Positions 1 to 64,000 of a stretch of 64,000 bases of DNA are shown here, one piece after another (position 1 is the stretch's first letter; every line of letters begins with the position of its first letter). Made by a program: the position numbers and the translations under genes. The stretch is from Micractinium sp. NFX-FRZ (lineage: Eukaryota > Chlorophyta > Trebouxiophyceae > Chlorellales > Chlorellaceae). Below the pieces are notes generated by a model. The model was not told the DNA's origin. It made no database searches and saw nothing but the letters and a program-made list of their open reading frames with translations. Where the stretch lies: positions 62,001 to 126,000 of the forward strand of contig JAPTJF010000093.1 of NCBI GenBank assembly GCA_029339195.1, read 5' to 3'.

Positions 1-2201
1 GAGCATAGCTCAGGCGGTACACAACCCCGCGCACCTGCACGTGTGGGTGCAGCTGGCAAAGTTCGGGCAGTACAGCCGCCAGCAGGTCGACGCCTTTGCG
101 GTACACCAGACGGCTCATCGCCACAATCGTCACCCTGCCGCCCTGACCATCATCAGCGCCGCTGCTGCCTCCTTTTTCACTACCGCCACAGCTGCTGCTG
201 CTTCTATCGCCACCACCATTGCCGCCGCCGCCGCTGCTGCCCCTGCTGCCGCCGCCGCTGCCGCTGCCGCGCCCTCTTGCTTCTGCTGCAGCCGTGCTGC
301 CAGGGTCCGGCTCACTGCCGCTCCCCGGCTGCGCTCGTCTTCGCCGCCGCCGCTGCTGCTGCTTCTGACTTTGCTGCTGCTGCAGCTGCTGCTGTCGTGG
401 GGGTTCCCGCTGTGGTGGCGACTCTGGCTCAAACAGGGACGCGTCCACAGCTGCATGCAGCGGGAGAGGAAGAGGCACGTTGCCAACCATCAGTGCTGTC
501 CAGCACGGGTGGGTCCACTCGGGCACGCTTCAGGTTGCACACAGGAGGCACACGGGAGGCAGGAAAGCAGTTGGCTGGGCGGCATGCCCTCCCCCATCCC
601 CCAGCCCTGCACCCCAGCACCCAAGTGCCCGTCCACCCGCACAATGCCCGCCTCAATGGCACACTGCCCGCTGCCCACCATGCATTCACTTCACCGGCAC
701 CCCAACAGCCAGACCAACACTGTGTTGGAAGAGCGGCACACGTGTATATGCAACGTGCAGATGCGCACAGCGCTGTGGCCCCGCCTAAGTTTCTACCCAC
801 CACAACGCCCGACAGCCCTGCGCCGCACCGTTTGGGATGACCGACACGCGCGTGGGCGGGATGCAGGCGCGCAGCACCGTGTTCTCCTTGCTGGTGTGGC
901 TCACGCAGATCACTTGGTGCACGTCCGCCAGGGTGTACTTGAGCACCTGACAGGGAAGAAGGGAGGGAGTAGCAGAGGGGTCGGTACAAGCTGTGTTCTC
1001 TTTGCTGGTGTGGCTGACACAGATGACGTGGTCCCACGTTGGCCAGGGTGTGCTTGAGCACCTGAGAGCGGGCAATAGTGAGTGAGGACGGGATGTGCCT
1101 CGTGCACATGGGTGGCGCGGCAGGTCCGAAACACAGAGGGATGCCGCGCAGTGGGCAAGTGGGAGAGCTCAATGTTTCTAAGGGGAAAGGCTTTCACACC
1201 CAGCCTGACCCGCACCCTGCCCCGGCCCCCCACCTTGTTCATCAGGATGCTGCTGGCGTCGGCAAAGCCGAAGAGGGAGTGGTCTGTGAAAACGGCGGGG
1301 TAGCCCATGGTGCGGGCATGCATGATGGCTTCGTGTGCAAGGACGGAAAAGGCCTGAGGGGTAGGGACGGGCAGGCGGGCAGGCAGGCGGGCGGGCAGGC
1401 GGACTGGCGGTGAGCACAGACGGGTGGGGACTGAGCAGGCAGCGGCGTATCCCAGGGTGTAAGCGCGCACGACGGCTTCGTGGGCAAGGACAAAGAGGGC
1501 CTGGGTGGGCGCCAGGGCGGGGAGGAGGCAAGCCGGCTGCAGCAGCGTGTGCCTGTCTGCGCTGCAGCAGCCTGCCACTGCAAACCACGGAAACCATGTG
1601 CCTCCACTTGTGGTCGGGGCCCCCGCACCTGGTGTGCATGCACCAGGGTGATTCTCTCCCTTAGCAGGATGGAGCGCAGCAGTGGGAAGCCTCCAAAGAG
1701 GGTGGGGAAGGTGACGGCCTGGGTGAAGGCCAGGCGGGGAGCGTAGTACACCTGCGGCAGGTGAAGGAGCATGCAGCTGGGAGCATCAGTGTGCGCTGAG
1801 ATGGGGACCAGTGTTGAGCAGGCCAGGGAACTTGGGAGGCAGGCGGCCCACTGCACCGCCCCGCCTTCCCAGCACACGTCCAGGGCTTTTGTGCGGCAGG
1901 CGCACCCTCTTCGGCCTCTCCAAGCCAGCCTGCCTTCCGTTGCGCCCACCCACAAGCCCACCTTGAGGCCATTTGTGAGGAAGCGCACCCCCGCCCGGTC
2001 GCCGTATGCGTGCGTCAGGACCACCACCTTGTGCCCCCGTGCCAGCAGGCACTGGCTCAGCTGGTAGATGTGGCTCTCCACCCCGCCCGTGTTGGGGTAG
2101 AAGAAATCAGAGACCATGAGCAGGCGCAGCTGCTGCTGCGGAAGCTCCGGCTGCTGTTGCTGCTGCGCTGGCGGCGGGGGCGGCGCAGCGTGGCCCGCCA
2201 T
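1..2201 (-). CDS. PIGA: PIG-A / GPI3, catalytic subunit of GPI-GlcNAc transferase (3' end outside window)
   Basis: Transfers GlcNAc from UDP-GlcNAc to phosphatidylinositol on the cytosolic ER face, the first step of GPI-anchor synthesis (family knowledge). Exons: 2201-1962, 1751-1629, 1353-1234, 946-829 and 450-35, then a donor at 34; the rest lies beyond the edge. These encode 339 codons. After a short Pro/Gln leader come [59 protein letters not shown] and, after the linker, [20 protein letters not shown], all in the family order. The splice joining exons 4 and 5 restores [17 protein letters not shown] Gln/Arg/Gly/Ser/Ala-rich stretch of about 70 residues, absent from animal and yeast PIG-A, is inserted between the two halves of the GT4 fold. 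The ATG at 2201 has GCC in front and G at +4. The gene is divergent from the SUN gene. Introns 2 and 3 contain degenerate copies of exon starts. Confidence 0.93.
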
Positions 2202-2579
2202 GGCCCGCCGTTGCCCGTGGACGCCTGTATGCTTGCTGGAGGGGATGCACTCGCTGTGGAGCTCAATTTGCTAATGCCTTGCTGTTCAAGAGGCCTTGAA
2301 TGCCGCTTGTGATCGAGGATGGGGTTTAGTTTTGAAAAAGCGGCACTTGCATATATACTGCCAGGCTTTCCCCCATGCGAGGGCTTCATCTGGGGGAGGC
2401 CCGGCAAGAGCAGAGCCCGTCCCTGCTGCGCCCGTGCTATGAGTGGCCCGCAGGCTCGGTCAATTATGGCGGGGGCAGGCGATCAGCAGCGCCAATTGCG
2501 CCACTTACGTGGTTTTTTCTCCTGATGCCGCACCTCTCCATATAGTGAAACCAGCAGACTCGGCCGTCAAGGCTGAGAA
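2202..2579. promoter_or_regulatory. Divergent promoter between PIG-A and the SUN-domain gene
   Basis: The 378 bases separate two divergent start codons. A TATA-like CATATATACTG lies at 2349-2359, about 150 bases upstream of the PIG-A ATG and 220 upstream of the SUN ATG, and reads the same way on both strands. No coding potential is seen. The promoter role is inferred from position only. Confidence 0.5.
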
Positions 2580-5500
2580 ATGCAGGTCGGCCAGCGGCAC
2601 ATGGCGCTCCTGGCACTCCGTGCAGCACTGCTGGTGGCTCTGTTGTTTGCCTGCAGTACCCCGGGAGGCGCGCAGCCCGCACCGCCGGAGGGCAGCGGAC
2701 AGGGCAGTGGGCTGGCGGGGGCGAGAGACAGAGAGCTCGGCAGCGGGTCGCCGTCACTCACAGCGGCAGTGGAGCCCCTGGCAGCGAGCGCAGTCGCGCC
2801 CCAGACGGAGTGCACCGGCGGTGGTACAGCAGCGACACATGATGGCGGCGGCGGCGGCACCTGTGGCTCCGGAGGCGGCACTGCCCCTGTGGCCACCCCT
2901 GCAGCTGCCGAGCTGGGCGGCGCACCTGCTGCCGGCTCAGCAACAGAGGATGCCACCGCAACAGGTGCCCTTGCGAGAGACGAGGCGCAGCAGCAGGCGC
3001 CGTCCGCAGGCACAGCAGCGGTGGTAGAGGTGCAAGGGGCGCACATTCCGGAGCCCCAGCAGCCTCCCCAGCAGCAGCAGCAGGAGCAGGAGCAGCGGTC
3101 AGCTGCTACGCAACATGCAGAGGCCGAAGGGCATCCTGCTGCAAGAGCAGCGGCCGCAGCGCCCGCTGCAGAAGCGGAGCAACAGGCCGACGCAGCCGTG
3201 GCCGCAGCGGAGGCGGCGGCAGCGGCGGCTGCTGCCGCCCAGGCGGTAGCGCCAGCAGCTGAGGAGGCTCCAGCCTTGCCGGTGCATCAGGAGGAGCAGC
3301 ACAACTTTGCGCTCTCCAAAGAGGGTGAGTGGGCAGGCAGATGGGGAGGGTGGGGGCGGGTCCGGTTCTGCCGATGTCGCTGATGTGCCGCGCTGGTCAC
3401 TGATTTTGCTGCCCCGCTGCCTGTGCACGCACTCGGCGCAGCACCGCCTTCCCCCTGTAGCAGCCAAGCAGCCAAGAAGGCGGGCCCCGGCTAAGTGTCA
3501 GGGACTGTGACACCTGCCATCATGTCACTGCCAACGGGTGTGTGTCCCCCGCAGGCGCCAAGGCGCCCAAGCAGTATCCAGCCAAGATCAAGCCTCTGAT
3601 ACCTTTCCTCATCAATCAATCACCACCTTTTCGTTTTCCTTCTTTCCCTTGATTCGTGTCCCCCACAGGCGCCAAGGTGCTGGCTGCCAACAAGGAGGCC
3701 AAGAAGGCGGGCGCCCTGCTGGACGACGACTCGGACACCTTCCTCAAGAACGAGTGCCGGGCGGAGGGCAAGTGGGTGATGCTGGAGCTCAGCCAGGTGG
3801 CCAAAGTCAGCAGGCTGGAGCTGAGCCAGGTGGGTGACTGAAGGTGGTGCATGAAGGGGACGGGTGAGGCCTGGGGTTGTGGGGAACTGGGGTGAAAGCG
3901 GGGACACAGTGGGTGGTGGTGGTGCTGAGCCAGGTGGCTGACGTCAGCCGGCTGGAGCTGCGGCAGGTGAGGATAAAGACTGTGTGTTTTTGAGCTGCAA
4001 GTAAGCGATGGGAGGGCAATGGGGTGGTGCTGGAGCTGCGCCAGGTGGCCAAGGTGTCCTGCCTAGAGCTGGGCCAGCAGGAGCAGCAGGAGTGCACTAC
4101 TTGAGCCATTTGAGGTGGGTGCACTGCGCCAGCTGAGTCGGGTGTTTTTTTTGTGGGCGGAGATGTATTGTAAGTTCTGGGGATAGCCGCTGAAGCTGCG
4201 CCAGGCAACACGGGTGTCCTGGTGAGGTGGGGTGGCAGGCACGTGAAGAGCATGATGCAGTACTCACCTGCTTTGCCCCTTTTCCCCAATACCTCTGCTG
4301 CCCTCCTGTGCCTCCCGCCCTGCGCAGTTTGAGCTCTACTCGGCGCGCGTGCGGGAGTTCGAGGTGCTTGGCCGGCAGAGCCACCCGCGCACCGAGGGGT
4401 TTGGATCCGAGTATGGCCGCACGCTCAACAGCACCCAGTGGAAGCTGCTGGGCAGCTTCACGGGTGCGCTGCGATGCCGTTGCGCTGTGCCATACCCTGC
4501 CGTGCCACGCTGTTGTGCTCTGGCTGTCGGTCGTGTCGTGGGCTAATCGGCCCTGGTGGTGCTGCTTTCCTGTATGTTTAACACTGTGCTGCACTGGCAC
4601 TGGCACTGCACTGTGCCGCCGCTGAGCCCACCATTCTCTCGCCCACGCTCTGCTCTGCTCCTGCCGTGCCCACCCCTGCCCCCGCTCTGCAGCCGAAAAG
4701 GTCAAGGGCAGCCAGACGTTTGTTGTGGAGCAGCCACGCTGGGTGCGCTACCTCCTGCTGCGCTTCCTCACCCAGCATGGCCCAGAGCCTGTGTGCGCCC
4801 TCAACGGGGTGTCCGTGTTTGGCAGGAGTGCTGTGGAGGAGCTCGAAGATCAGCTGGCATCTGAAGCCGAGGAGGGACTGGGCCTGCTGCCATCCTCTTT
4901 AGAGCCAGCTGCACCGGCGCCGCAGCCAGAGCCAGTGGCGCCAGAGGCGGTGCCGCTGCCAACGGAGGCGCCGGCAGAGGCTGCCGCCGCTGCTGCTGGG
5001 ACCCAAGCCGGGGTTCCGCAAGCAGCAGGCGCACAGCCGAGCTCTGCAGCGGGGGCCGGGGAGCAGCAGCAGGCTGCGCAGGGGCCGGCGGCGGCGGCTG
5101 TGCACCAGCAGGCGCCGGCACAGCCGTCGCAGCAGCCAGCGGTGCCACCGTCGCAGGTGCAGCAGCAGGCAGCAGCCGATGCCGGCAGCGGACATGCTGC
5201 GGCTGCCAGTGAGGCATTGCCAGCTGGCACGCCTGCTCCACCAGCTCAGCAGCCTGCCCCGCCACCGCCCCCAAGTGGCCAGCAGCAGCAGGCAGAGGTT
5301 GCAGCAGGCCCAAGCGTTGGCAGCAGTGGCAGCACAGCTGCACCCGCCGCCAGCGGCAGCAGCGGCGGGGAGCCAACAGCTTCTGTCGGCGCCGGGGAGC
5401 AGCAAGCGGCCGCAGGCAGCGCAGGTGACAGCGCTGCAGGTGCAGCCACACCAGCAGCCGGCAGTGTGGCATCACCCGAGGCACAACAGCCTCCTGAGAC

Positions 5501-11000: not shown

Positions 11001-13749
11001 CGCCACGCATCACCGTGCCTGCAGCGCAGCGGGGCGAGGCGGGTTGGGGTGGGACGGTGGTTCTTATGCCGTTTAGGCAGCGCCTTGGGATCGACCACCA
11101 ATGGGCATGAGCGCGTAAGGGCCCCATGCATGGCAAGCTGCCACGGCGCACAGGACAGCGGGCCGGCGGGGCGAAGCAAGCCAAGGAGTACAAGGAAAGC
11201 AGGGGGCGTCAGGTGCAGGCAGGCAGAGGGGCAGGCTGCAGCCAACCGTGCGCCTCCCCACCAGCCAGGCAATGCAGCCTCACAGCGCAGCACGGCGCAG
11301 TACAACACAGCACAGAATGCCACAGCACCGTGCAGCACGGCACAGCACGGCACGCACCTGTCAGCACGGTGCCCTGGCCCTTGATGGCAAAGCAGTGGTC
11401 CACGTAAAACAGAAACGGCTCCTGCCTGCTGCCGCCGCTGCTGCCGCTGCCGTTTGAAGCCACCATGCTGCTGCTGCTGCCACCAGTGCCACTACCGGCA
11501 GTGCCAGCAGTACCGGCAGCTGCTGCGGCATCACCTGGCCGCAGCCTCACCCTCTCAAGCAGAGTCTCTACCAGCCGATCCACCCCAATGGGCCCCCCTT
11601 CCGTCCCTGCTGCGCTGCTGCCCTCGCCCCCACCAATCGCCGCCCCCGCCGCCGCCCCGCCTGCTGCAGCTGCAGCTGCAGCTGTGCTCGCCCCGCCGCT
11701 TGCCGATGTGATGGCCCCTGGCCGAGCCGCCACGGGTACTACAGGGCAGCCCGCAAACTTGGTGGCTGCCAGGGTGGCGCCCACCAGCTTCTGTGCCTTG
11801 CGGCAGTACCGCTCCCTCTTCTCAGCCGGGAACTGGTCTGCGGGGCAGTGGATGGGTGGATGGGCATGTTTGTTGGTGGCCTAGTGGTTGGTTGGCATGT
11901 ATGTTGGTGACCCAGTGGTTGGTTGGCATGTATGTTGGTGACCCAGTGGTGGTTGGTTGGGCGGTCATATTCATGAGGTGGATAACAGCGCACTTGGCAG
12001 CCACCAGCCGCTGCCGCTTGCGGCACCGCTCGCGCCTGCCGGCAAGACTGGCCTGCAGAGGAGGGCGGCTGTGGCCGCAAACTATCAACGGCCGAGGGCA
12101 GTCATGCAGGCGCTTACCTTGTACAGCGCCACTACCACGTCTTGTGCAGCCACCACCCCGGGCAGCCCACTGACCCCACACCACATGGCACACAACACAC
12201 AATGCCCTGCCTGACGTCAGCACAAGCTGCCCACCCACCGATCTTGTTGAGCGCCACCACCATGTCCGCCGCCGCCACCTCCCCAATCACGATGCACTCT
12301 GCCGTCTGCGCCTGGATGCCTTTGGCCGCATCCACAACAAGCACCATCAAGTCGATGATCTGCATGGGGGTGGGTGGGCAACAGCGGGCAATGCAATCGA
12401 TGATCTGTGTTGGCGTGGGTGGGCAACATCGGGCAACACAATCGATGATCTGTTCTGGGGTGGGTGGGCAACAAAGGGCAATACAACCACTAACAGGATA
12501 AAGCAGGACAAGGGGCCAGGGCAGCGCCCACAACAGGCAGCAAACAGCAGGCATGCAGGCACGGGTGGGAAGCCATCCCTCAGCCACATCAAGAACCAGC
12601 ACCTTCACCCCAGTGCTGTGTTGGGGCCAGGGCTGGGGAAGGGGGGAAGGGGGCGCAGGGCAGGCTACTGTGGATCCCCCCGCCTGCAACACCGCCAAGT
12701 CAAGGATCCCTGGTGGTGGGTTGGAGTGACAGGATGAGTAGGACAGGCAGGGACACTCCCAACTGCCCAGTCTTTCATAGGTACACCCCCCACACACCTG
12801 TGCGCCGCCAATGATTGTGCGGATCAACGAGGCATGGCCGGGGCAGTCCACCAGCGTGACTTGGACCTGCCTGTACCCCGCCGCAGCAATGTGTGGCGGA
12901 GCGGGCACCTGCGGGGGGCGGCGGGGGTGCATGGGGTGGCTGCTTGCTCACGGCAAGCGTCACTACAGCCTGCGTGAAGGTTGCGCATCCTGTCGTAGAA
13001 CCACGGGCACCCTCGTGCGCTGCTCGCACCACCCCCACTACTGTTCGATTGTCCATGCAACTACCTGGTGACTGCGCACCCACATTCACCCATTGAAACC
13101 ACCTCTCCACCCGATCCGCTCATACAACAACAAACCAAACGCCTTTCCCCCTTCCCACCGTGAATGAGGAGAAGCCCAGGTCGAGAGTGATCCCACGCTC
13201 CCGGCTTTGAGGGTGCTTGTCCAACGCAGCGGTGGACAGTGTTGTGGACAGCGCCGCCACTGCAGGCGGGCGGACAGGCAGGCAGAGGGTCAGCAGGAGG
13301 GGCGGGGCAGGGTGGGCTGTAGTGTGGGTTGCAGCAGGTCACAGGGCAACAAGGGTGCTCAGCGCTGGGCATGGCGGCACGCCGCGGCGGTCTGGCACCG
13401 CTGGCTCATTCTCAACCCATATGCAGCGGCGATAACAGCAACCATTCCACGCTTGCCTAGCGAAGTCTTTCCCGAGTCCACATGGCCCAAGACCTTCAGG
13501 GAAGGAGGGGGAATCGTCGAGGGCAGTGAGGGCAGTAGCTGCCTGCAGGGGGGCGCCGGCATCGGCGGCGCTGCTGGCGGCGGCGGCGGCGGTGGCGGTG
13601 GCGGGCTGGTGCCAGCACAGCGCAGCGGTCTCCACCTGCACTAAGACCTGTGTTGTCGATCCCAGGCAGCAAATGTCACAACAGCGTGGCCCTGGCTCAC
13701 TCACTCCGACGTTCACGTTGTACACGTCGCGTGCCGGGACAGGCGCCAT
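8076..13749 (-). CDS. EEFSEC: Selenocysteine-specific elongation factor EFSec (eukaryotic SelB)
   Basis: GTPase that delivers Sec-tRNA to the ribosome at UGA codons with SECIS elements. Fourteen exons: 13749-13705, 13493-13457, 13259-13159, 12908-12798, 12359-12239, 11837-11358, 11018-10925, 10718-10621, 10346-10236, 9825-9360, 9218-9139, 8842-8743, 8539-8499 and 8266-8076; 691 aa. The joined exons give MAPVPARDVYNVNVG, the P-loop LGHVDSGKTSLVAALSTT, DKHPQSRERGITLDLGFSSF (switch I), VTLVDCPGHASLIRTIIGGA (G3), VVALNKID (G4), then VDHCFAIKGQGTVLTG and VKKVKSMQMF of domain 2. Domain 4 ends FDEDKRRMAQ. The human protein is about 596 aa; the extra length is Ala/Gly/Ser and Gln-rich insertions in exons 6 and 10. 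Introns 2 and 12 need GC donors (CTAG|GCAAGC and GCAG|GCAAGG), since no GT gives the right phase. Introns 4 and 5 carry exon-edge copies. Confidence 0.95.
11882..11959. repeat. 31-bp tandem repeat in EFSec intron 5
   Basis: The unit AGTGGTTGGTTGGCATGTAT plus GTTGGTGACCC repeats about 2.5 times just upstream (gene sense: distal) of exon 6. It is intronic and recent, because copies 1 and 2 are almost identical. Confidence 0.85.
12353..12480 (-). repeat. 45-bp tandem repeat duplicating the exon 5 acceptor of EFSec
   Basis: CGATGATCTG recurs at 12353, 12398 and 12443, an exact 45-base period. On the minus strand each unit carries CAG followed by ATCATCGA, that is the acceptor and the first codons (IID) of exon 5. 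The real exon starts at 12359. The two upstream units stay open in the same frame, so splicing to them would add 15 or 30 residues in front of IIDLMVLVVDAAKG. Confidence 0.85.
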
Positions 13750-18187: not shown

Positions 18188-20282
18188 ATGGCCACCGTCC
18201 AGCGCCAGTGCGTGTTTGCCCCGCAAGCGGCAGCAGCGCGTGCCAGCCGGCCTGGCCGCCTGGCGGGCGTCGTGCGGGCACAGCAGCTGAATGGGCAGCA
18301 CAATGCGCGTGAGGGTGCAGCGGCTGGGCCAGCCTCCACTGCGGCCCGCCTCTGCGGCGTGGCAGCTGCGGCAGCAGTGCTCGCCGTGAGTGGAAGCGCC
18401 TTGGCCCGCGAGAAGGTGGCTGAGTTCACCACCTCCGGCCTGATCTTCCGGGACTCCGTGCAAATCGTGGAGCTGGAAGACGACAAGGGTGAGAATGATG
18501 CAGGAGGGGGACGGAGGAGGGCGGTGTTTCTTTTGCTCTGCGTGTGCGATGGCAGCCAGCTGTGTGGCAGTGCATATGCCCAACCTGCCTGGCTCCCTCC
18601 ACCGCCCCCAACACCACAGCCACTGAGTGTGCCTGATTGTGTCGCCTGTTGCGCACATTTTGCGATGGACAGTGTGGTCATCCGCCTCACAGACTGCCAG
18701 CGGCGCTCCTGCTGCCCTTGGAAACTGTGCTGTTGTTTGCCGGCGTCTTTGCGCCCCGCAGGTGACTGACATAGCCCGTCTTCCTTCCTTCACCTCGTTG
18801 CTGCAAAATGTGCAGTGGACGGCGTAGTCATCTACTTGACAGACTACCAGCGCAGCCTCACGGAGCGGCTGGCCAAGGCAAGCAGGGAGGGAGGGGCAGC
18901 CGAGGGTAGCCTGGCAGCCAAGGGTAGCAGGGGGGCAGCAGTTCGGACCAACGGGGGGGGGGGACACTGCAGGCCTTGTGCCAGCACTACAGTTGGGGGG
19001 TTGGATAGCAGCACGGCAGCAGGCATGGAGAGGATGTCCAGGTGTGGTTGCCCTCCCTGTCATTGGCGTCAGCGATGGCGCCTCTTCCCCTCCCAGCTGC
19101 CCGCCCACACCTTGCCCGCCGTCTCACCTCCCATCGGCCCCACCCCATGCGACCTGCCCCTTCTTCTGGCCCCTTTGCCCGTCCCGCAAGTAGGGACCCC
19201 ATCAGCGAACCTGGCAGGCATCCCTCACCTGCCTGCCCAGCCGTCTGCCTGCCCGACCAGCTTCCTTCCCCCATCCTCCCCCACCCCAACCCCATGCACC
19301 CTGCCCCTTCTTCCCGCCTCCCTGTCCCACCCGGCCAAGCAGGACCCCTTCAGCGACCCCTCCCAGGCCTCCCTCACCTGCATCGCCAACAAGCCGGTGA
19401 CTGTGAAGGATGAGACGGCCATCTCGGGGTCGGAGGGCAAGGAGATCTTCTCGGAGCGCAAGGGCCTCAACCTGTTCCAAAACGTGCGTGGTTCGTGCTT
19501 GCACGCTGGCTTGGTTTGGTCCCGTGTGCCTATCCCTTCCTGCCCGTCTGCCCCTTCTGTTCCACTCACCCATCTGTTTGCTGTGTTGCTTGTGCCCCTC
19601 CGGCAGAAGAGCCTGGTTGTGCGGCGCATGTTTGGCCAGGAAAAGATGCCTCATCTAACTCTTCCATCCCTTTGGGTTCCATCCGCCCCCTGGGTGCCTC
19701 CTGCTTCTCCCAACTTGTGCAGAAGAACCTGCGCGTGCGGCGCATCTTTGATGAGAAGAACCGGGCAGTCATCTACGTGGCATACAGCACGCGCTTCACA
19801 GGGGGTGAGCTGTCTTGATTCTGCCGCAAACACTGTTGCAGGTAGTAATGTGTGTTGTGCTGCTCTCGGCTGGCTGGCCCACAGCATGCGCTTTGCCAGC
19901 GATGCGTGGGGTGGTGCAGGGGCCCGCGCAGCTGCATGCAGGCTGGCCAGGTGGCAGCGCACAGCGTGCATGCGTCGGCCTGGTGCCGCTGCCTGACTGC
20001 TGGCGGGGCAAGCTGTTCGGGAGAGGCAGGTCTGCTCACACCTGAAGCCACGCCCCACCACCAACCTAGCGTAGCTGATCCGTGGTGCTCACTCTCCCAC
20101 CCGCCGCTCTCCCCGTCCACTCAACCCCCATCCCCAATGCCCGCCCCCGCCCGCCTGCAGCCGCGGATGAGAAGGAGGTAAGCACCAGCCGCTACCGCAC
20201 CTCCGTGTGCGCCGTGCCCCTGGCGGCCCCTGCCCTCATGGATGTGGCGGCCCCCGTGGCCTCCGTTGCCGCTGCGCAGTAG
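18188..20282 (+). CDS. CreA-family protein with a chloroplast transit peptide
   Basis: Exons: 18188-18488, 18816-18877, 19343-19483, 19723-19804 and 20161-20282; 235 aa. The first 75 residues are rich in Ala, Arg, Gln and Ser and end with LCGVAAAAAVLAVSGSALA, which looks like a bipartite thylakoid-lumen targeting signal with an Ala-x-Ala cleavage site. The rest matches the CreA domain (PF05981): EFTTSGLIFRDSVQIVELED, VDGVVIYLTDYQRSLTERLA, ASLTCIANKPV, LNLFQNKNLRVRRIFDEKN and VIYVAYSTRFTG. CreA is a periplasmic protein of unknown biochemistry in Proteobacteria, and plant and algal relatives are plastid-located (family knowledge). No function beyond the family can be claimed. Intron 2 has a GC donor (AAG|GCAAGC). 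Introns 1, 2 and 3 each contain a decayed copy of the exon that follows them. The ATG at 18188 has a GCC-ATG-G context; the TTG nine bases upstream was not used. Confidence 0.9.
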
Positions 20283-30255: not shown

Positions 30256-34940
<4,685 letters not shown>

Positions 34941-45828: not shown

Positions 45829-45865
<37 letters not shown>

Positions 45866-47891: not shown

Positions 47892-50800
47892 TCAGGCGCC
47901 GTCTGCTGCCTGCAGCGTTTGCAGCACGTGCGCAGCGCTGGGCCGCGCCGCAGCATCCAGGCTGGTGCACCGCTGGATCAACTCTAGGACGCCCGCTGGG
48001 CACTCTTCAGGCACCCGCGGCAGCCGCCACCCTCGCCGCCTGAACACCGGTGTCTGTGTGGTGAGTTCGATCAGCAGCAGGCCAAAGCTGCAGTGGGCAA
48101 CGGGTTGCAGGGAGGGCAGGTGGGGGCATGTCAACACATACGATAAAAGGGCACCAGTGGAGGGTAGTGGCATCTGGTGCCAGCTGGCTGTGTCCAAGCA
48201 GGCACCGCTTTGGCAGCAGGCGGCTCGGTGCCGGCTGCACCAATGTGCCCCACTGCCCACCTCCTCCACGCCTCTCTCCCCCTGCTCCCCGCGTCTGCCC
48301 ACCTGTAAATGTCTGCCGCGAGCGTGCAGCGCTGCCCCATCAGCTGCTCTGGAGCTGCACGGCACATCAAGGCGGCGAGTTGGGTCGGGCGATGCTGCTA
48401 GCAGGCCGCAGATGAGAGCTGGGCAGGCGAGGATGCAACTGCAGCGTACAGCTCGCAATTGCAAAGAGCACCGCAAGGAGCAGCTGACGTGTAATGCACA
48501 CTCAATGCACCGGACAGGTAAAGTGCAGGCATAGGCACCTGCATAGCCAAGGGTCATGCCCGCGGCGCTCCGAGCCTGGCTGCCCACCACCTGCGCCAGC
48601 CCCAGGTCTGCAATGAACCCCCGCAGGTCGGCAGACAGCAGCACATTGCTGCAAGGGGGGTTGGGGTGTGTGGCAGAGTGTGTGGCGCAGCAAGTGGGTG
48701 GGGCACGGAAATCAGGCAGGCAGACGGGCAGGCGGGCAGGCGGGCAGGCAGGAAGGTGGGCTATTGCAGGCTGGCAGGCAGGCTGGTAGGCAGGCAGGCA
48801 GGCAGGCAACCACGGCAAGCAGCCTGGTGCAGGGGGCGCGGGGCCTCCTTTGCTTCCCCGGGCGCTCGGGGTGCAAGCCTCTTCCTCCCCCGCCTTCCTC
48901 ACCTCGACTTCAAGTCTCCATGCATGATGTTGACTTCAGAGTGCAGGAAATGGAGCGCCTCTGCCACGTCCAGCGCCACCTGGCGCCCCCTGCACACACA
49001 CCGGCACCGGCAAGGGGCTGATGACTGCAGGGCCCATCAGTCCAACCTAAACACCCCGCGGGGCAAGCGTGGCTGCGCCTGCCCCCCTGCAGGAAGCATC
49101 CTACGGTGCCAGAGGGACATCCCGTCGAGACCCACGGTGCCAGCAGTGGAGAGCTCTCCGCTCACCTTGCGCCCCAGCGAAGGGTGTCGCGCAGCGCCGG
49201 GTTTTGGAGCGCCGTCTTCAGGCTGCCCCCATGCATCAGCAGGAACACGAAGAGCATCAGGTTGCCCTGCAGCCAGCACAGCACAGCACAGCGTAGCAGC
49301 ATGAGCATGAACAACATCAGGCTGCCCTGCAGCCAGCACAGCACAGCACAGCGCAGCGCAGCGCAGCAGCGAGGACAAACATGAACAGCATCAGTTCGCC
49401 CTGCAGCCAGCACAACGGAGCAGATAACAAGCCAGGGACACAGGATGGCATGGCCGGGCCCGTGCCGCTGTTGACAGCAGCACGGGCACCAGGCAGCACT
49501 ACTCTTGCCCCAAGCGCCCAGCCGGGTGGCTGCATGAAAGCGAGGCCAGAGCAGCAGGTGCGTCAGGCAAGAGACCCAAAGGCATCTTGCTACACTTTGC
49601 CTCCGTCTCACCCTGAGCGCAACTCCCAGCAGGGGCACGATGCGGGCGTGGGTGCACCTCTGCAGCAGCGCCACCTCGCGCCAGGCTGGCTGCGCGTCGA
49701 TGCCGGGCTCAAGCTCCACCACCTGAAGAGGCAGAGTGAGAATACGAGATGGGTCCGAATAGTGACATCTCGGGAGTCTGTGTGGCACGAGTGGTCAACC
49801 ACTTGAATGGGCAGGGCATGGCAAGGGTGGCCAGCAGTCGACACGGACGACGCGGGGCCGGCGGCAGGAGGAGGGAGGCGGTTGAATGGGAGGCCACGGC
49901 CCCGGTTGTTATCCAGGGCAGGCAAGCAGAGGGTGTGGAGAAGGTGAGCAGTTGGGCAAAGTTGTCAAACATGCAGGAAGGCGGGCAGGCACCTTGACCG
50001 CCACGTCCACTGTTGGCTCCCTGAGTCGCCCCAGGTACACCACAGCGCTGCCCCCTTGCCCGAGGACCACCATTTTGCCGTCACCGTCGCACACAAACTG
50101 CGGAACAGAGGAGGGGCGATGCGGGGCAATGCAGGGCGCAGGAGGGTGCACCCTAAACCCGAACCCTGAACCCAGGTGGCAGCGAAGACGTGGGGTCGTG
50201 CTGGCTCGAGGCGTTGGGGTGAGCAGTGGCTAGTTGGCAGCGGGCAGGCATCTGGGCAAGGCAAGCAGGGCAGCCAGGAGCAGCATGCGCATCAAGTGGC
50301 AGCTGATGTGGGGGGCATCCTCCTTCCCTCCAGCAAGCAGACATGCAGCACCTCTTGCTTCCCCGCCATCGCGGCAGGCAGCGCAAGGTGTCGGGGCACA
50401 ACAGCAGCAGGGGGCCACTCACATCTAGCTCCCTGAGGGACAGCTGCAGCGAGTCGGTGACCTGGCCCCACCGCTGCACGTGGCCCTCATCAGGCGAATC
50501 AACAGGCGCCCATGTGGGCGCCAACCCCTGCTGCTGCTGCTGCTGCTGCTGCTGCCGCAGCTGCTGCCTGGAGTGCGTGTCTGACGCTGCGCCTGCTGAG
50601 CCCCGCTGGCGGCTGCCAATGCTGGACAGCTGGTGCATGAAGACATCAGATGTGAGCGCCTCAGGTGGCAGGACCGCGATGCTGAGGCGGCCGCCCAGCT
50701 CAGCAGCCAGCCAGCTTGCCAGCCGTGCGCTCCTGGTGCATGCCAGCTGGCTGGGTGCGCTGCTGCCTGCCGACCGGCTGGGTGAAGCATCGGACCGGGA

Positions 50801-52345: not shown

Positions 52346-52392
<47 letters not shown>

Positions 52393-54658: not shown

Positions 54659-57600
54659 CTAGGCAGCGGCACCTGACGTGGGTGCTGCCGTCCCCAGCTC
54701 TTTCAGCACCCGCTCCGCTGTCAGCTTGGCGCTGATGAAGCACAGCGGCACGCCGTTGCCGGGGCGGGTGCTAGCACCCACAAAGTACAGGCCGGCGATG
54801 CGCGGGTCGCGGTTGGCGGGCCTGCAAGGCATGAGGGCGGGCGGGTGGCCAAAAGGCGGTGCGACAACGTGCGCATAGCGGGCGGGGCAACACACTTGAA
54901 GGCACGTCTGCTGCTCACACATGCGATAGATGGCGAGGAAAGTCCGCACGATCCGGTCAGCCACCTCCGGTCAACCATGCTCCCCTATCACTGCACACCA
55001 CACCCTGCTGCCCCCACTGCTTACCCACACACGGTGTCCCCACCCAAGGCAGCCCCGCCCGCCTGCCCACACAGCCCACCTGAACAGGCTCAGCTGGTCC
55101 AACCCGTGCGCCAGCCCAAAGGCGGCACCGTGTCGAAGCCCGTAACGCGCCTCCCACTCAGGCGGTGCAATCACGGACTCGTGCAGGATCGCCGACCCCA
55201 CGTCCTCGCCCAGCCCTGCCGCAGCAAAGGCGGCCAGGATGCGCTGCCGCCCCGCCTCCACGAGCGCGCTGTAGTCGGCTGCGCCGCCGCTGCTGCTGCT
55301 GCTGCTGTTGCTGCTGCTGCCACTGCCTCCACTGCCCAGCTGCCCAAGGTGTGCCACAGGGAGCAGCACCATGATGCTGTCACAGCCAGGCGGTGCGGCA
55401 GAGGGGTCGGTGCGGCTGGGGCAGTGCACGTAAAAGTTGGGCCAGCGGGGGAGGTCCTCCGGTCGGCCTGCCGGCTGCCAGGATTGCTGCCACTCCTGGC
55501 TGAGGAAGACATTGTGGTGGGCTAGCGCCTCAACTTTTCTAGAAAACGACCAGTTGTAGGCAACCACGCCTGCGCTGTACTTGAGCCGCCCCAGCCGCTC
55601 GTGCTGCTGCCGGCCGTAGGCCGCCGCCGCCGGGGCGGCTGTGTAGGACGCCCGTGGCCCCGCCGCTGCCGCCGCAACTGTGTGCCCGTCACTGCTGCTA
55701 CCGTTGCTGCTGATGCCGCTGCTGCCGCTGTCGCAGCCTGCTTTGCTGCTTGCTTGATCGCTGCTGCCGCTGCCAGCCGGGTTTAAGAGTGAGTAGGCTG
55801 CAGCCGGGTCTAAGAGTGAGTAGGCTGCAGCCAGGTCCCTGTTGCACACCACAACATCGGCCGCCAGCTGTCGCCCATCCGCCAGCACGACTCCCGTCAC
55901 ACGGCTGCCAGAGGGGTCGGTGCTGACAGCTGCCACCTCAGCACCCGTCTGGATGCGCACACCGCACGATTCTGCCGCCTGCCTCAGCCCATTGCGGACC
56001 TGAAGTTCTCAAGGGGCAGCACAGCAGCATGAGCGGCAGCACAGCAGCGGTGGGAGCGAGGGACACAGATGGTGACCGCGTTGTGTGCATGCATTCCGTC
56101 GGCAGGCGGCCTCCCCCGTGATTCTGCACGCTCCACAGCGTGAGATTCGCCTGACCAAGCAGTACTGAGCATCATGGGCAGTACCCACCGTTTGGAAGCC
56201 TCCGAGGGGGTACCACACGCCGTCTGTCAGCTCCGTGCCTGCCAGCAGGCTGAACACTGCTGGTGCAGTGAAGGGGGACAGGCCCACGTACAAGTCCTGT
56301 GTCAAAGGGAGGGGGCAAACACTGGGGGCAGGCTGAGGCTCACGAATTCATGGAACCGGGTCAAGGGGGGCACGCAGGTAGGCGGGCAGCAGACAGGTGG
56401 CGTACCGCTCTCCCACTGCTTCCTCTGCCTGACGAGCTGAGTGGCACCGTCAGCCGGCCATCCCAAAGCACACGGCACTCATCTTAACCCCAGGCCGTGG
56501 CACTGGCTGGGACGAAAGATGAACTGGCACCAACACATCCATCCCCCCTGGACAGTCAGCGCGTCCCTTGGTCAGAAGTCCCGGAAGACATGGCACTTGC
56601 CTCAGCCACTCTCTTGCTCCTGATACACTTGTGAGGGCCAGCACCGACACAGCTGCACAGGAAACAGAGGCGCGCACCCCCACAGCTGCCCCACCTGGAA
56701 TGTGAGCAGCGCCCTCAGGCGGGGGCCCCGCAGGATTATGGGCAGTTGTCTCAACACTCCTTTGCCCCCAAGAAACAGAGGCCAGTACACACACATGTGC
56801 CCCACCTGGAATGTGAGCAGCGCCCTCAGGCGTGGGTCCCGGAAGAACTGCTTCAGCCTCCAGTCGTGCTGGCCCAGCAGGTTGAGCAGGTTGAGGCTCG
56901 GCAGGAAGGGCAGGAGGTCCTGCAGGACACGAGGAATGGAAGAGAATATGAATGGGCACGGTAAGGTTGTTGAGAAAGTGAAGCCCGAGAGGTACAGCGC
57001 GTTGAGGCACTGCGCGGAAGGGCCAATGGGCCTGAGAAGGCAGGGACAGGGGAGGGCAGGAAGGCGGGGCGGCCGGCCGGCACCGGTCCAGCGGGTCAGG
57101 CACGAGCGGGCGTTCCCCCGCTGCGCCCATCCCGCCGCGTTTATCCACACTCAAGCCAACCCAACCGATAACCTGTCCTTTCACCTGCAGTCCCCGTGGG
57201 TTGACCAAGTCTTCCAGCTCTCGGTCAATGAAGTAGGGCACCCCCATCTCCAGGTTGCGCCGTGCCATGAGCAGGAAGCGGCTGCGGGGCACGGCAGGCA
57301 GCGGGCGGCGGGGGCGCGCTCCGTCGATGGTAAAGTCTAGGCTAGTCACCACAGCTGTTCCAACCCCCGGAACGAGGTTGCAACTTCAGGATGAACCATG
57401 CCAATGCTACAGGGAACATAAGGTCAATGCTACAGGGCACCCCTTACGCGCGGAGCAATCCACGGGAGCCGCCTGCGTGGGGCCTCCTGTCGCAGCTACA
57501 GCGGGGCGGGTGGAGCAAGGAGCGGGCAGGCAGAGCTCAGAAGGCGCTCCCCCTTACCGGTACCCCTCCCCTGCCCCCGCCTCCTCCGCCTCCAGCTGCG

Positions 57601-59017: not shown

Positions 59018-62000
59018 ATGGACCGGCGTGCGCTAGAGTACACCAGGGCGCATTACGACAAGCACTCCAACCAGGCAAGACCACATAGACCTCATAGAGG
59101 GCCCCAGATGCCCCCAGGCCGCGGTCGCCCGCCCACCCTGCCGACCTTCCTTGCTCTTGCAGTATGAGACGACCGCGGAGGCGTTGCAGGCACGGGCTCA
59201 GGGCCCAGGCGCGCCGCTGAAGAAGTTCCACAACACCATCAAGCGCCAGCTGATCAACAAGTGCGCCGGGCGGGGCGGCAGCGGCAGCCAGCTGCCAAGT
59301 CGCTTCGATCAGCCTGCCCCAATCCAGCAACTGTCTCATCGCAGCTTCCTGGGACAGGGTAGCGCGCTGCGAGGCCGTCACAGCAGCTGCATTGAGCTAG
59401 CGGCGGCCAGCCCCTGCTGCTCACGTCCTCCCCGCGCTCCCTCCGGCCCACCCGGCTGCCTCCGCCTGCCTGCCTGCCTGCCTGCTCCATCACCCCGCAG
59501 GTTTGCAGGAAGTGCAGAGAGCTTGCTGGACCTGGCCTGCGGGCGGGGTGGCGACATCTGGAAGTGGATTGACGCGGGGATCAGCCGGGTCAAAGGCGTT
59601 GACCTGTCGCCCGGGGAGATTGAAGAGGCTCGCAAGCGGTGGGTGGGTGGGTCTGGGGCCTCTTTGTGATGCTTTAGCGCGCACCTGATGTTTAGGGGCG
59701 TGGAATTGCCTCCTGGGGAGCTTGCAGAGGCCCGCAAGCGTGCGTGGATGGGCGGGTGGGTGGATGCCTGGGATGTACAAGACAGGTGGGCAGGTGGGGG
59801 TGTTCAGCATGCGCGCGCTCATGGAGCCAACCCCCCTCTGCGCAGCTGTGCGGAGCAGCTGTCAAGCGCCCCCATCAGCATCCCTACCACCTCTCCACAC
59901 TAGTTTCCCTTCCAACCACCCTCCCCGTGCCGCTTTCCGCATTCCGCACCACCCCACCCCTCGTTGCAGCTTTGCTGAAGCAGCGGCCAAGCGGCCCCAG
60001 CAGCAGCTGGACTATGCATTCGTGGACAGCCCGGCGCTGGGGCTGGAGGAGTGGCGGGAGGCGGAGCCATATGACGCCGTGACCTGCATGTTTGCCATCC
60101 ACTACTTTTTCGTCAGCGAGCAGGCGCTGAAGCAGGTGTGTGTGGCTGTGTGCGTGTGGAGGAAGGCAGGGGTAGGGGCGTTGGGAGGGGGGCCATTCTT
60201 GCATTGCAGGGCAGGCGCTGCACGGGCTGAATGATTTATGCCAGCCACTGCAGTGGTGGGACAGCGAGTGGACACTGAAGCAATGACCCTTCCTGTTGGG
60301 TTCTTCCCTACATCTACTTGCCCGTTAACTTGATTCATGTATGTGCAGTCCCTGCACAATCCCCCCGTCCTTCGAAGCCACCCGGTCCACTTCTTGGTGG
60401 CTCCCTGCTGACCTGGCAATTCCCCTTCCACTGCCACCTGCCTGGCCCAATGTAGTTCTTGCACAACGTCTCCATCAACCTGAAGGAGGGCGGCTACTTC
60501 ATCGGCACCGTGCCAGACGGCAAGAAAGTGAACGCGTGCAGCATGAAGTGAGCAGAAGCGGAGGCGGTGGTGTGGGCAGCATAGCATGGGCAGCGTGCGC
60601 CGGCATGGTGCAAGATGGGGGCGTGGGCAGTTAGCAAGGCGGGCGTCATGAAGGGAGCAGCAGAGGCGGCGAGGGTTGCCGGGGGGCTTGGGCAGCATGC
60701 GCAGTGGCCCTGCGCTCCTGCGACGTCACTTAGCGCTGTGGGGAGGAGCCATGCCATGCCATGCCATGCCAAACAGCCATGGCGCCCTGCGCTGTGCGTG
60801 TGTGTGTGCAGCCTGCGCCAGCCGTCACGGTCTCCATGCTGAGCAGAGCAATAGCTCTGCACACAAACTCAATCATGCTTATTGCTGCTGTTTTTTGCAG
60901 GTCCAACCCCTTCCAGTCGCCCATGCTGACGATTGAGGCACACTGGAAGAAGGAGCCCCAGTGCTTTGGCAGCCCATACATCTGCGCCATTGGGGACACG
61001 GTCACTGGAGGTGGGGCCAGGGGTGGCAGGGGCCTGGTTATGGGTTTGCGAGTATGCTAAACCCTGTCCTGTGTGTGGGAGCTCTCTGCCAGGTGTATCC
61101 GCCCCTTCCACAAGCAATGTCCAACAGGCAGGCGGGTGCGCATGCAGGGTGGGAAACAGAAGCCAGCAAGCCAGGCTTATATTGTTGGCTCGGCCGTGGC
61201 TGCCTGCCCTCTGCGCACCGACAGCTGGCCGCACCCGCCTCGCTGCCCTGCCGCAAGCCCAAGCCCCGCCCCTGCTGCCCACTGCACCCACATCCGCATC
61301 CGCCCTGTTCCATGCACCCTGCTGCTGCCCCGTGCAGGCGAGAAGGGCACCCAGGGGTCTTATGAGTACCTGGTGTATTCCAACGTCCTTGTGGGCGTGG
61401 CGGCGCGGTACGGGCTGAAGCCCGTGCTTGACTACGCAGACCCGCAGCTGGCAGGGCTGTTTGACCCGGTAAGCTGGTGGTTAGAGGTGTGGGTGGCTGT
61501 GCCGGATTTTCTTAAGAAACGGGGCGCAGTGCAGACAGAACCCTGTGCGCAACCAGCAGCCCTGCAGCTAGGCACAGCACCATTCCGACCCCTTGCCTCG
61601 CCTCACCATTCCGCCTGGCAGCGGCTCACCCATTGCCCTTCTTACCAGCTCTGGTTCACCCTGCCCTGCCCTGCCCTGCCCCGCACTGGGACCCCCGTTG
61701 GTGCAGGCGGATGCCGGCAAGCCTCTGAAGCACTTCAAGCCCCGCTTCCCCGGCAGCGACCCCAGCCTGGAACTAGCCAGCTCCCTCTTTGCCGCATTTG
61801 TGTTCCAGAAAACCAGCGGCAAGGCGGTGGCGCCAGGCGCTGCCAGCTTTGCGCAGCCAGCAGCAGCGGCAGTGGGCGCCAAGCGAAAGCGAGAGGAGGA
61901 GGCGACAGGGGCGGCGGCAGCGGGGGGAGCGGGGCGGCCAGTGCAGCGGCGGAGGCCGGGGCTTCTCAAGTTGGCCCCACAGCAGCAGCCACAGCAGCAG

Positions 62001-62171
62001 CAGCAGCAGCAGCAGCAACAGGCAGCAGCAGGGCAGCAGGAGGAGGAGCCGGACGCTGCGGCGGACCAGCAGCAGCCGGCGGCAGCAGAGCAGGATGCTG
62101 ATGGAGCGGCAGAGGCAGCAGCAGCAGCAGCAGGAGCAGCAGCAGCGGAAGCAGGGGAAGGCTCTTCCTGA
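59018..62171 (+). CDS. mRNA cap guanine-N7 methyltransferase
   Basis: Methylates N7 of the cap guanosine using SAM, in the nucleus. Exons: 59018-59074, 59163-59260, 59501-59638, 59970-60135, 60456-60547, 60901-61010, 61338-61468 and 61707-62171; 418 aa. VREHY-type start (RALEYTRAHYDKHSN) leads to HNTIKRQLINKFA, the SAM site LLDLACGRGGDIWKW, VKGVDLSPGEIEEARKR, YDAVTCMFAIHYFF, LKEGGYFIGTVPDGKKV and NVLVGVAARYGLKPV. This is the full RNMT/CMT1 core. About 100 residues of Ala/Gln/Glu-rich tail follow, preceded by a basic patch (GAKRKREEE) that may serve as a nuclear signal. Intron 1 starts with GC (CAG|GCAAGA). Intron 3 carries a copy of the exon 3 end. TGTAA at 62235-62239 is a likely polyadenylation signal, 64 bases past the stop. 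Confidence 0.95.
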
Positions 62172-62585
62172 GGGGGGCGTGATGGAGCGTGCTTTCACAT
62201 AGAACCCAGCCCTCTTCCAGGCGGTTGAAACTCGTGTAAGCTCACACACTGCGGACGCATGCACCGACGAGCAGTGTGTACAATTAGAAGAGCAGGCGCA
62301 CAGTCATGAAGCAGCAAGGGCTTGCTTGCTTCCCAGGCTGAGGCAGCACTGGGTGCAGAGGCAGGCCCGTTTTAGAGCAGACCAGAGGGATGGCGGAAAC
62401 ATAATGTATAGGGCACAGGTCATAGGCAGCAAGGCTGCGCAGGTCACGGGTGAGCAAGTCAACACCCCTCTCGGGGAGCAAGGGCAGAGGGGGCAGCTGA
62501 GATGTCTAAGCTCAGTGGGGATCGGGCATCCAGAGCTGCCGCGCAGCTGCCGCGCCGCTGAGCTGCTCTGCAGCGGAGCGGGGCA
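62172..62585. terminator. Convergent 3' ends of the cap methyltransferase and the secreted protein
   Basis: The 414 bases include TGTAA at 62235-62239 for the plus-strand gene. No UGUAA was seen for the minus-strand gene. No coding region was recognised. Confidence 0.5.
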
Positions 62586-63815
62586 TCAGGCAGCCGAGAC
62601 GATGAGCAGCTTGTCGAGGCAGACGTCCAGGTTTGGCGTGGCTGTTGAGCACCCCTCCAGGCGCTGCAGGCACAGGCCTATCGTGAGGCGGTCCGCCCGG
62701 AAGGCCGCTGCCTCTGGCTCCGAGGGCAGGAAAGCGGACAGCTGTGCTTTCACGGGGGTCCACTGGCCGGATCGGATTGAGGCCAGCAGTTCAGCGGCGC
62801 TGGGGCTGCTGCTGTCGGCCGCTGCCTGCGCTGCCAGCACCTCGGACAGGGTCAGGCTCTTGGTGATGGCGTAGCGCGAGGGCTGGCTGCTCTCAAACTG
62901 CAGGGGGAGGAGGCGGGGCGGGGAGATGGGGAGGCACGGGGCAGCAGTGGCGGGCAGCGATTGCTGGTGCAGGCAGGCTCGTGCTCCCTGGGCTTTTAAC
63001 GACTCCAATTACAGCCTCTGTATGCCTGCAATGCCGCACGCCTGCTCTGCCTGCACACTCTGTCCCATCCCTGCCGTACTGGCGCTCTCACACCACCTGT
63101 CGGGCACGTGGTGATCACATCTCCCGCGCCTACCTGAAGCTCCATGTCAGCCAGCGCGGAGGACGACGCATTGTCCGAACGCACATAGAAACCAAGCACG
63201 CCCGATTCGAGGGTAAAGGGCATCGCACTGCGGAGAGAGAGGGCCCCGAAGGGCATTGCGCTCATGCACAGCGCGCTTTTCGCACCTGGGGAGTTGGGAT
63301 GGCAGGAGGGGGAGGGGCAGGGGACCTGAGAGGCTGGGTACTTGAGAGCTTGTGTCACTCGTTGCAGCATTCCATCTCAAAAGAGCTTACCAGGCAACGG
63401 GTTGTTGGAGTTCTTCAGATCCAAAGCACCCAACCCCCAGCTCCAGCTGCGCCTGCAGAGAGGCAGCGGCGGCGGTGCGGGGTGGGCGCAGCGGCGGCGC
63501 ATGCCGGTTAGCAAGCGAGGAACCTCAAGCAGTTCTGCTCGTACTTGCCTGTGTCCTTCTACCACTGGAGCCACAAGCAGAGGGGTACTTGAGTGAAGAC
63601 AGCAAGCAGACAGCAAGCTGTGGCAGGCAGGGCGCCGCGGGGGGCGGCTGGCTGTTTCTCTCCATGCATGCCTACCAAGCAAGGAAGCCGTTGTCATAAA
63701 TCACGCCCACTGAAGCTGACAGTAGGGCTCGCGCATCCGGTGCGGCTGCAGCCGAGGCCCAGCGCCCCAGCAGCGCGAGCGCGAGCAGAACGAGAAAGGG
63801 TTGCGCGCGCGGCAT
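62586..63815 (-). CDS. Small secreted protein with a Trp-rich beta-sandwich-like domain
   Basis: Exons: 63815-63676, 63452-63391, 63285-63134 and 62897-62586; 221 aa. A strong signal peptide (FLVLLALALLGRWASAAAA) precedes VGVIYDNGFLAWRSWSWG, ALDLKNSNNPLPGAKS, MPFGALSLRSAMPFTLESGV and LGFYVRSDNASSSALADMEL. The arrangement of a Tyr-Asp start, a W-x-W cluster, a G-x-x-S core and a final F-x-V/F-Y-V strand resembles carbohydrate-binding-like modules in secreted microbial and algal proteins. That is a weak resemblance, not a firm assignment. The C-terminal 100 residues have no catalytic motif that I recognise. Exon 3 starts at GTGCGAAAAGC because the later acceptor directly before the Ala-Met-Pro-Phe repeat gives the wrong phase. 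The protein is probably extracellular or in the cell wall. Confidence 0.75.
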
Positions 63816-64000
63816 TCTGACACCCTTGTTCGAGTGTGTGAATTCAATGCTGGGGTAATTAAAAGTGCCCAATGGAGCGCGGTCGGAGCCAGGCTCGCCA
63901 TTGGACTATGGTGAGCTGGCAGCTGCGGCAGCCGGGCGGCAGCTGCGCACGCACTCCTACAACCGCATCAGGGACATGCCCAGCAGCCCCTCTTGGCAAA
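63816..64000 (+). other. Promoter of the secreted-protein gene and possible 5' end of a divergent gene
   Basis: From about 63880 to the right edge one plus-strand frame reads SEPGSPLDYGELAAAAAGRQ and LRTHSYNRIRDMPSSPSWQ without a stop and with plausible protein composition. It has no ATG before an upstream TAA, so it would need an upstream exon or a different start. I do not recognise the family. Confidence 0.3.

Follow-up and report, generated by a model that had tools for sequence, protein, structure and literature searches.

The subject of this analysis was a 64-kb stretch of the genome of the green alga Micractinium sp. NFX-FRZ (positions 62001-126000 of contig JAPTJF010000093.1, in a 66-Mb assembly of 838 contigs), referred to here as the window, and in particular the introns of its predicted genes. 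A first-pass annotation of the window had described imperfect copies of neighboring exon edges, with their splice sites, in at least 18 introns of 10 genes. The existence of such junction copies was confirmed, both in the window and elsewhere in the genome: roughly one in eight of the introns sampled bears a decayed, direct copy of its own exon edge together with the splice site.

The sample comprised the window and 25 further stretches of 10 kb, one from each of 25 contigs, giving 314 kb or about 0.5% of the genome. The G+C content of the window was 63-66%. Gene models were produced with a hidden Markov gene finder, whose seed was a set of exons identified by eye in a SUN-domain gene and whose training data were the sample, and which converged on 578 predicted introns with the donor GTGAG(C/G/T) and the acceptor CTGCAG. 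Complete predicted introns numbered 557, with a median length of 248 bases, and the 540 that were at least 60 bases long were used, the 17 of 557 below 60 bases being left out.

Exon-Edge Copies in Introns

When exon edges were searched against their own introns, matches with a score of at least 30 were found on the donor side in 25 of 540 introns, on the acceptor side in 37 of 540, and on either side in 60 of 540. Swapped exon edges gave means, over 20 rounds, of 0.75 on the donor side and 0.85 on the acceptor side, or about 1.6 together, and reverse-complemented introns gave 0 and 1, respectively. Counted by junction sides, 62 of 1080 own edges matched versus 1.6 swapped ones, and at a lower cut-off (score of at least 24) the figure was 111 of 540 introns, versus about 25 for the controls. 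The swapped-edge and reverse-complement controls rule out chance or shared composition as the source of the matches, and the similarity between introns and flanking exons on which the first-pass annotation depended is well above control level.

Direct matches also dominated when no gene models were used. Self-matches of the window found by blastn (score of at least 20, 20-400 bases apart) were 26 direct and 1 inverted, while those of the 25 other loci (score of at least 24, 100-400 bases apart), which include some repetitive coding sequence, were 51 direct and 2 inverted. Together with the background counts for reverse-complemented introns, this bears out the same orientation of copy and original, and an inverted or hairpin origin was rejected because near inverted matches are few.

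Queries spanning the junction gave hits in 18 of 116 introns of the window, belonging to 10 of its 15 genes (a search without its own swapped control), in agreement with the number first described. Two of these 18 introns are weak members: 31171-31428 depends on a match of 15 bases, and in the case of 3967-4327 the upstream 'exon' is really another copy, called as an exon by the gene finder. Outside the window, 55 of 424 introns were positive, so that the window is typical of the sample, and over the whole sample 35 of 68 genes having at least three introns were affected; the process does extend beyond the window, as had been supposed.

The matches were limited to neighboring exons. Non-adjacent exons matched at background rates (2/898 at one intron's remove, 2/1472 at two, and 6/5748 at three or more), which indicates that the copying process is local; a spliced-RNA template, which would predict copies of non-adjacent exons, was rejected on these counts. 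The far ends of the flanking exons matched in 18 of 449 and 10 of 449 cases, but could not be separated from the near edges because the query of 100 bases exceeds the length of many exons.

Anatomy, Spacing and Intron Length

The similarity profile of 69 pairs was centered on the junction, extending from about -50 to +20 at donors and from about -20 to +50 at acceptors, so the copied block consists of some 50 exon bases and 20 intron bases at both kinds of site. Queries made of exon sequence only, with introns shorter than 90 bases also left out, detected 59 copies, of which 43 reached to within 8 bases of the junction. A GT or AG was retained in 28 of these 43, compared with a background of about 5%, and the splice sites must therefore have belonged to the copied segment.

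Junction-spanning queries gave 107 hits at a score of at least 28, and the 75 pairs with at least 12 exon bases and a score of at least 30 were kept for measurements of spacing. The first-pass annotation had put the copies about 40-300 bases from their originals; the range proved to be much narrower, with 67 of 75 pairs spaced 77-160 bases apart and only 2 of 75 closer than 77. Median spacing was 110 bases at donors and 111.5 at acceptors. Repeats between intron sequences behave differently, as 101 of 140 were spaced below 80 bases and the shortest spacings were the commonest. The lower edge of the junction-pair distribution falls between the 1st and 5th percentiles of intron length (70 and 98 bases, for introns of at least 60 bases). 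Among the 72 pairs with spacings of up to 200 bases, spacing was independent of intron length (rho 0.03), by which a spacing set by intron length was ruled out. A weak correlation of spacing with the length of the flanking exon was seen sample-wide in the same 72 pairs (rho 0.35, p 0.003).

Copy-bearing introns exceed the others in length by roughly one spacing, in keeping with the proposal that introns grow by this process. The 68 introns with exactly one hit at a spacing of 70-200 bases had a median length of 340.5 bases, versus 238.5 for introns without any hit, a difference of about 100. Models in which the full spacing, the copied block only, or nothing is added to an intron predicted medians of 359 (p 0.097), 287 (p 2.5e-6) and 254 (p 2.5e-13), respectively. 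The test favors addition of the whole spacing, and a model in which only the block was inserted into an intron already present was rejected, with the caveat that copy-bearing introns may have grown in more than one event. The extra length was presumably gained through the duplication event itself. The further suggestion that the process might explain intron richness is unsupported, since the evidence concerns the growth of existing introns and not the birth of new ones.

Origin of the Copies

On balance it is probable, if not strongly so, that the copies arose by local duplication spanning splice junctions, with unexplained sequence between the two copies, and that they were filtered by splicing and then left to neutral decay. 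Short, local, direct duplications would arise repeatedly across splice junctions in this alga of the Chlorella clade, a typical event adding some 80-150 bases and leaving a second copy (about 50 exon and 20 intron bases) inside the intron, the stretch between it and the original being for the most part not recognizable as belonging to a duplicated unit. Such a duplication would be tolerated because the junction adjoining the rest of the exon is presumably still used, so that the message is unchanged and the intron merely longer. Copies nearer than about 77 bases, roughly the length of the shortest introns, would probably disturb splice-site choice and be removed by selection, while a surviving copy would accumulate changes as non-coding DNA generally does, its GT or AG being lost in the course of this. 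At the DNA level, the events could represent end-joining with added sequence, or old tandem duplication with later re-homogenization of the exon part.

The first-pass annotation attributed the copies to repeated local tandem duplication across junctions. The events are indeed local, direct and junction-spanning, but a head-to-tail unit is recognizable in only a minority. Plain head-to-tail duplication of junction-spanning units some 110 bases long (about 40 exon and 70 intron bases), with faster decay of the intron part since neither of its copies is constrained, is a possible but doubtful account. Clear full-length units do occur, at 19088-19388 in the window, at L018 7927-8146 and L021 878-1050 outside it, and in an intron of a kinase-like gene described below. 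The spacing is more constant than its components, as long copies go with short intervening stretches (r -0.55, 57 pairs), and the length difference of copy-bearing introns fits a full unit. For pairs with a spacing of 70-200 bases and a score of at least 34, 11 of 57 intervening sequences (7 of 21 in young pairs) were significantly closer, at p < 0.05, to the expected partner than to those from other introns; composition was uncontrolled in this comparison, and the numbers fell when composition-preserving shuffles were used, to 6 of 56 in local and 5 of 56 in global alignment, where about 3 are expected by chance. Among young pairs (exon part at least 90% identical), in which the relation should be plain, only 4 of 20 (local) or 1 of 20 (global) reached p < 0.05 under shuffling. 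The intron part of the copied blocks should also be the worse preserved, yet it was as like its original as the exon part (85.6% versus 86.3% identity, 21 blocks). Plain tandem duplication can thus be demonstrated only in a minority of cases, because the intervening sequence of young copies is rarely recognizable as a second unit. As that sequence is mostly unlike a second unit, most events were either born with extra sequence or had their exon part kept young by conversion.

End-joining with filler or templated insertion would leave a short direct repeat with an unrelated middle, a pattern with which most pairs may be compatible. A source for the middle was sought among the 314 kb, where 16 of 23 intervening sequences had no match beyond themselves, 3 matched repeats of their own locus, and 4 had only matches of 14-39 bases elsewhere. 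A second full copy of two regions with young cases was not found in the 66-Mb assembly, one region giving a single match, and the other itself and 7 matches (outermost 34 bases). A dispersed element was rejected on these searches.

Somewhat less probable, and in our view rather unlikely, is that the copies are remnants of old tandem duplications in which gene conversion from the exon keeps the exon-edge part alike, the remainder of the intron unit having decayed beyond recognition. This would account for the sharp edges of the blocks, for youthful exon copies standing beside saturated intron sequence, and for the scarcity of intron-only pairs of equal spacing. In the SUN intron, each of the two copies is no less similar to the exon than to the other copy, but neutral decay explains this equally well.

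That the copies are functional, as alternative or mutually exclusive exon pieces or as conserved decoy splice sites, is improbable. Among copies at least 85% identical that reach to within 8 bases of the junction, AG was kept in 10 of 11 and GT in 6 of 9, and several copied splice sites score as well as real ones, from which some mis-splicing at copied sites would be expected. In less similar copies, however, the dinucleotide was kept in 12 of 23, near the expectation from general decay. The test set for coding constraint (spacings of up to 400 bases, n = 75) gave mismatches at codon positions 1, 2 and 3 of 15, 16 and 22 in young copies and of 83, 70 and 100 in old ones, only a mild excess at the third position. 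The first-pass annotation had held that the copies often keep the reading sense of the exon, but the frame is not kept: spacings left remainders of 0, 1 and 2 on division by three in 21, 21 and 33 pairs, with no preference for multiples of three, and the read-through extension was open in 36 of 75 copies compared with 53% of controls. Frame is broken outright in the copy at 994..1068 of the PIG-A-like gene, by a one-base insertion. Relatives also lack the copies in their proteins: all 4 SUN relatives with a visible junction (of 14) run from exon to exon without the copy at 3898..3966, and the 5 aligned GARS relatives have no additional residues at the junction of the copy at 31643..31726. A coding or in-frame function was accordingly rejected, and the copies look like decaying non-coding DNA.

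An assembly artifact, or chance similarity from shared composition, is hardly tenable, for although these introns are rich in simple repeats and their gene models were predicted in this same analysis, both controls were near zero, the exon parts differ from their originals by 0-30%, unlike assembly stutter, and neither of the two regions searched occurs in full a second time in the assembly.

Several results weigh against junction-spanning local duplication with neutral decay as formulated above. Where a pure tandem origin is assumed, it is contradicted by identical copies whose flanks align poorly (47/47 bases at L004 and 29/29 at L003, with 32/33 at L011 behaving likewise), while the combined p values for the shuffle tests (0.017 local, 0.048 global) show some residual relation of the intervening sequences across the set. 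The introns are themselves the predictions of an unsupervised gene finder that worked from sequence only. A further objection concerns the junctions themselves. If random local copying and a selective filter accounted for everything, intron-only pairs should abound: simulation predicts 65% intron-only, 21% exon and 14% junction pairs, with much the same detection for all (0.93-0.95), but the recent pairs at spacings of 77-180 bases were 9 intron-only, 5 exon and 19 junction. This excess gave p 0.016 even when junction pairs were generously assumed to decay more slowly, and p 0.00035 once intron pairs that were judged by eye to be repetitive had been dropped (from 9 to 4). Blind end-joining, from which no preference for junctions is expected, does not predict 19 junction pairs against 9 intron-only. 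Junctions are either copied more often, or their copies stay alike for longer. It is conceivable, and put forward only tentatively, that duplication or upkeep is directed to splice junctions by something tied to transcription or splicing, which would copy the junction and its exon edge about 110 bases into the intron or repeatedly re-copy them there. If true, introns would grow genome-wide in steps of about one shortest-intron length.

Relation to Known Systems

The closest parallel is an RNA-dependent RNA polymerase (RdRp) gene of potato, in which, according to the published report, a tandem duplication crossing an intron-exon boundary gave rise to a new spliced intron and an inserted stretch of exon, and an 83-bp tandem duplication within the first intron is also mentioned (PMC4974935). 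The potato segment, as described there, took in the terminal part of an intron, including its acceptor and pyrimidine tract, and the beginning of the exon that follows (PMC4974935), and the duplicated segments of the alga likewise span a splice junction. The potato case, as described, is a single, recent, near-identical unit, whereas the alga has many decayed copies lying inside single, longer introns; similarity over the whole head-to-tail length was found in few algal pairs (the 6/56 or 5/56 given above), a few full units notwithstanding.

Intron gain by tandem duplication of the Rogers type resembles the algal process in that splice sites are supplied by a local, direct duplication. By our reading of that model, the spacing equals the length of the new intron. 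No such equality was found in the alga, in which the spacing falls short of the intron length, the intron beyond the copied junction having a median length of 227 bases and a 5th percentile of 77 (72 pairs with spacings of up to 200 bases), and in which the copied segment contains an existing junction. Internal duplications have reportedly been studied as a source of change in gene structure across eukaryotes. A review regards the mechanisms of intron gain as open and cites work on internal duplication (PMC3488318).

Introners, which one paper reports mainly from lineages that evolve rapidly, green algae among them (PMC9860276), are alike in bringing about mass change of introns, but as characterized there they copy themselves into many genes, while the copies described here match their own adjacent exon. 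The same sequence was not found in many unrelated introns when two regions were searched genome-wide and 23 intervening sequences were searched in 314 kb. The first-pass annotation knew of no described lineage in which most genes show such duplications, and this was not contradicted, as no report of junction copies across a lineage was recognized among the papers listed from the part of the open-access literature that was covered.

The source of intron sequence and the way in which introns lengthen are still unsettled, and cases that can be traced are few. In this alga, some one in eight of the sampled introns still reveals the source, the steps fall within a narrow range of sizes, and the copies can be ordered by their degree of decay, so that intron growth, and the constraint that splicing places on it, would become measurable within one lineage. 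An ordinary unicellular alga would then be predicted to carry a constant reserve of surplus donors and acceptors, and hence to show some mis-splicing.

Copies in the Window and Other Features

Eight predicted proteins of the window, or parts of them, fit Pfam families (PIGA, Sad1_UNC, CreA, DUF846, GARS, amine oxidase, mRNA cap methyltransferase and patatin). Near the left end of the window, on the minus strand, a copy at 994..1068 reproduces the acceptor of the PIG-A-like exon 801-946 together with 68 coding bases from the exon start (original 879-953), at a spacing of 115 bases, with 59/68 exon and 6/7 intron bases matching and the AG kept. A second acceptor with its exon start, from exon 1234-1353 (minus strand; original 1295-1356), has a copy at 1442..1503 (spacing 147), in which 44/59 exon bases match and the AG is kept.

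The SUN-domain gene, on the plus strand, has a copied acceptor and exon start at 3542..3566 (original 3656-3680; spacing 114; 11/12 exon and 12/13 intron bases), and one of its exon ends was copied twice. The first copy, including the donor, lies at 3898..3966 (original 3761-3829; spacing 137) and was partly called as exon by the gene finder; the second, at 4011..4077, is 248 bases from the exon and 80.6% identical over 67 bases, and has lost the donor GT. An exon end on the minus strand was copied to 12114..12155 (original 12239-12280; spacing 125; 32/42 bases), the junction not being covered by the match.

On the plus strand, the acceptor and exon start of the CreA-family gene (original 18798-18852) have a copy at 18649..18703 (spacing 149), with 29/37 exon and 13/18 intron bases matching and the AG lost. 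A full-length tandem unit follows, its acceptor region and exon start being repeated at 19158..19233 (plus strand; original 19305-19380; spacing 147). Here 19088-19239 and 19236-19388 gave a 158-base alignment at an offset of 148, and the sequence between the copies is similar as well (local p 0.033, global p 0.007). A further acceptor with its exon start, also on the plus strand, was copied to 19603..19634 (original 19719-19750; spacing 116), with 23/28 exon bases matching and the AG kept. The exon end and donor of the DUF846 gene, on the minus strand (original 28829-28910), recur at 28680..28761 (spacing 149; 64/76 exon and 6/6 intron bases; GT kept), with an additional copy near 28563-28616, at an offset of 266.

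The GARS gene, on the plus strand, also has several copies. An exon end with its donor was copied to 31643..31726 (original 31517-31600; spacing 126; 64/74 exon bases; GT kept), an acceptor and exon start to 33299..33322 (original 33410-33433; spacing 111; 15/17 exon and 6/7 intron bases), an exon end to 34137..34180 (original 33835-33878; spacing 302; 36/44 bases), and another acceptor and exon start to 34208..34252 (original 34319-34363; spacing 111; 23/29 exon and 15/16 intron bases; AG kept). Comparison of the GARS protein with its relatives was made with the first 413 of 653 predicted residues, the remainder of the model appearing doubtful. Residues 1-413 share 90% identity with Chlorella ohadii (over 90% of the length) and 87% with Chlorella variabilis, no exact match being found, which places the alga in the Chlorella clade, and they align with 5 relatives except for a variable N-terminus and six additional residues at the end of exon 1. 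These extra residues suggest that the donor of intron 31171-31428 was set 18 bases too far downstream in the predicted model.

An exception with a short spacing lies on the minus strand, where an exon end and donor at 39129-39149 were copied to 39088..39108, only 41 bases away (15/16 exon bases), as a plain tandem repeat (39089-39167). Further along the minus strand, the exon end and donor of an amine-oxidase-domain gene (original 56769-56841) recur at 56658..56730 (spacing 111), with 34/36 exon and 29/37 intron bases matching and the GT kept. One intron of the mRNA cap methyltransferase gene, on the plus strand, received copies from both sides, an exon end at 59698..59740 (original 59596-59638; spacing 102; 34/43 bases) and an acceptor with its exon start at 59833..59880 (original 59957-60004; spacing 124; 29/35 exon and 10/13 intron bases; AG kept). 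The rightmost of these copies, of an exon end and donor on the plus strand, is at 60636..60671 (original 60531-60566; spacing 105; 13/17 exon and 15/19 intron bases), and its GT has been lost.

Two adjacent genes, named as kinase-like by eye, occupy 41049-45895 (A) and 47892-53566 (B), and their seven 3' exons match in size. Alignment of the seven introns that they share, each extended by 40 bases into the exon at both ends, gave 76-82% identity when gapped columns were disregarded, and a protein search for further kinase-like paralogues counted 156 exon matches in the genome. Intron 42751-42961 of A, of 211 bases, contains one junction, while the corresponding intron of B, of 345 bases, is 134 bases longer and contains three units, which of the two states is the older being an assumption. 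The acceptor and exon start of B (minus strand; original 49237-49273) recur at 49297..49333, at a spacing of 60, and a second copy lies near 49363-49422, about 130 bases from the original. The two genes form a useful natural pair for studying intron turnover. An intron of A also holds a GGCA repeat at 42108-42291 (46 copies, 75% match), resembling CAGG/GCAG arrays at 48713-48808 and 52345-52392.

Other repeats were noted in passing. A single predicted gene has two introns with a tandem array inside or at their edge, one at 11863-11956 with 31-base units (93% match) and the other at 12352-12486 with 45-base units (85% match). The top-scoring local duplication listed for the 25 loci outside the window, L010:5551-6955, is a direct duplication of about 700 bases with 87% identity that includes a predicted intron.

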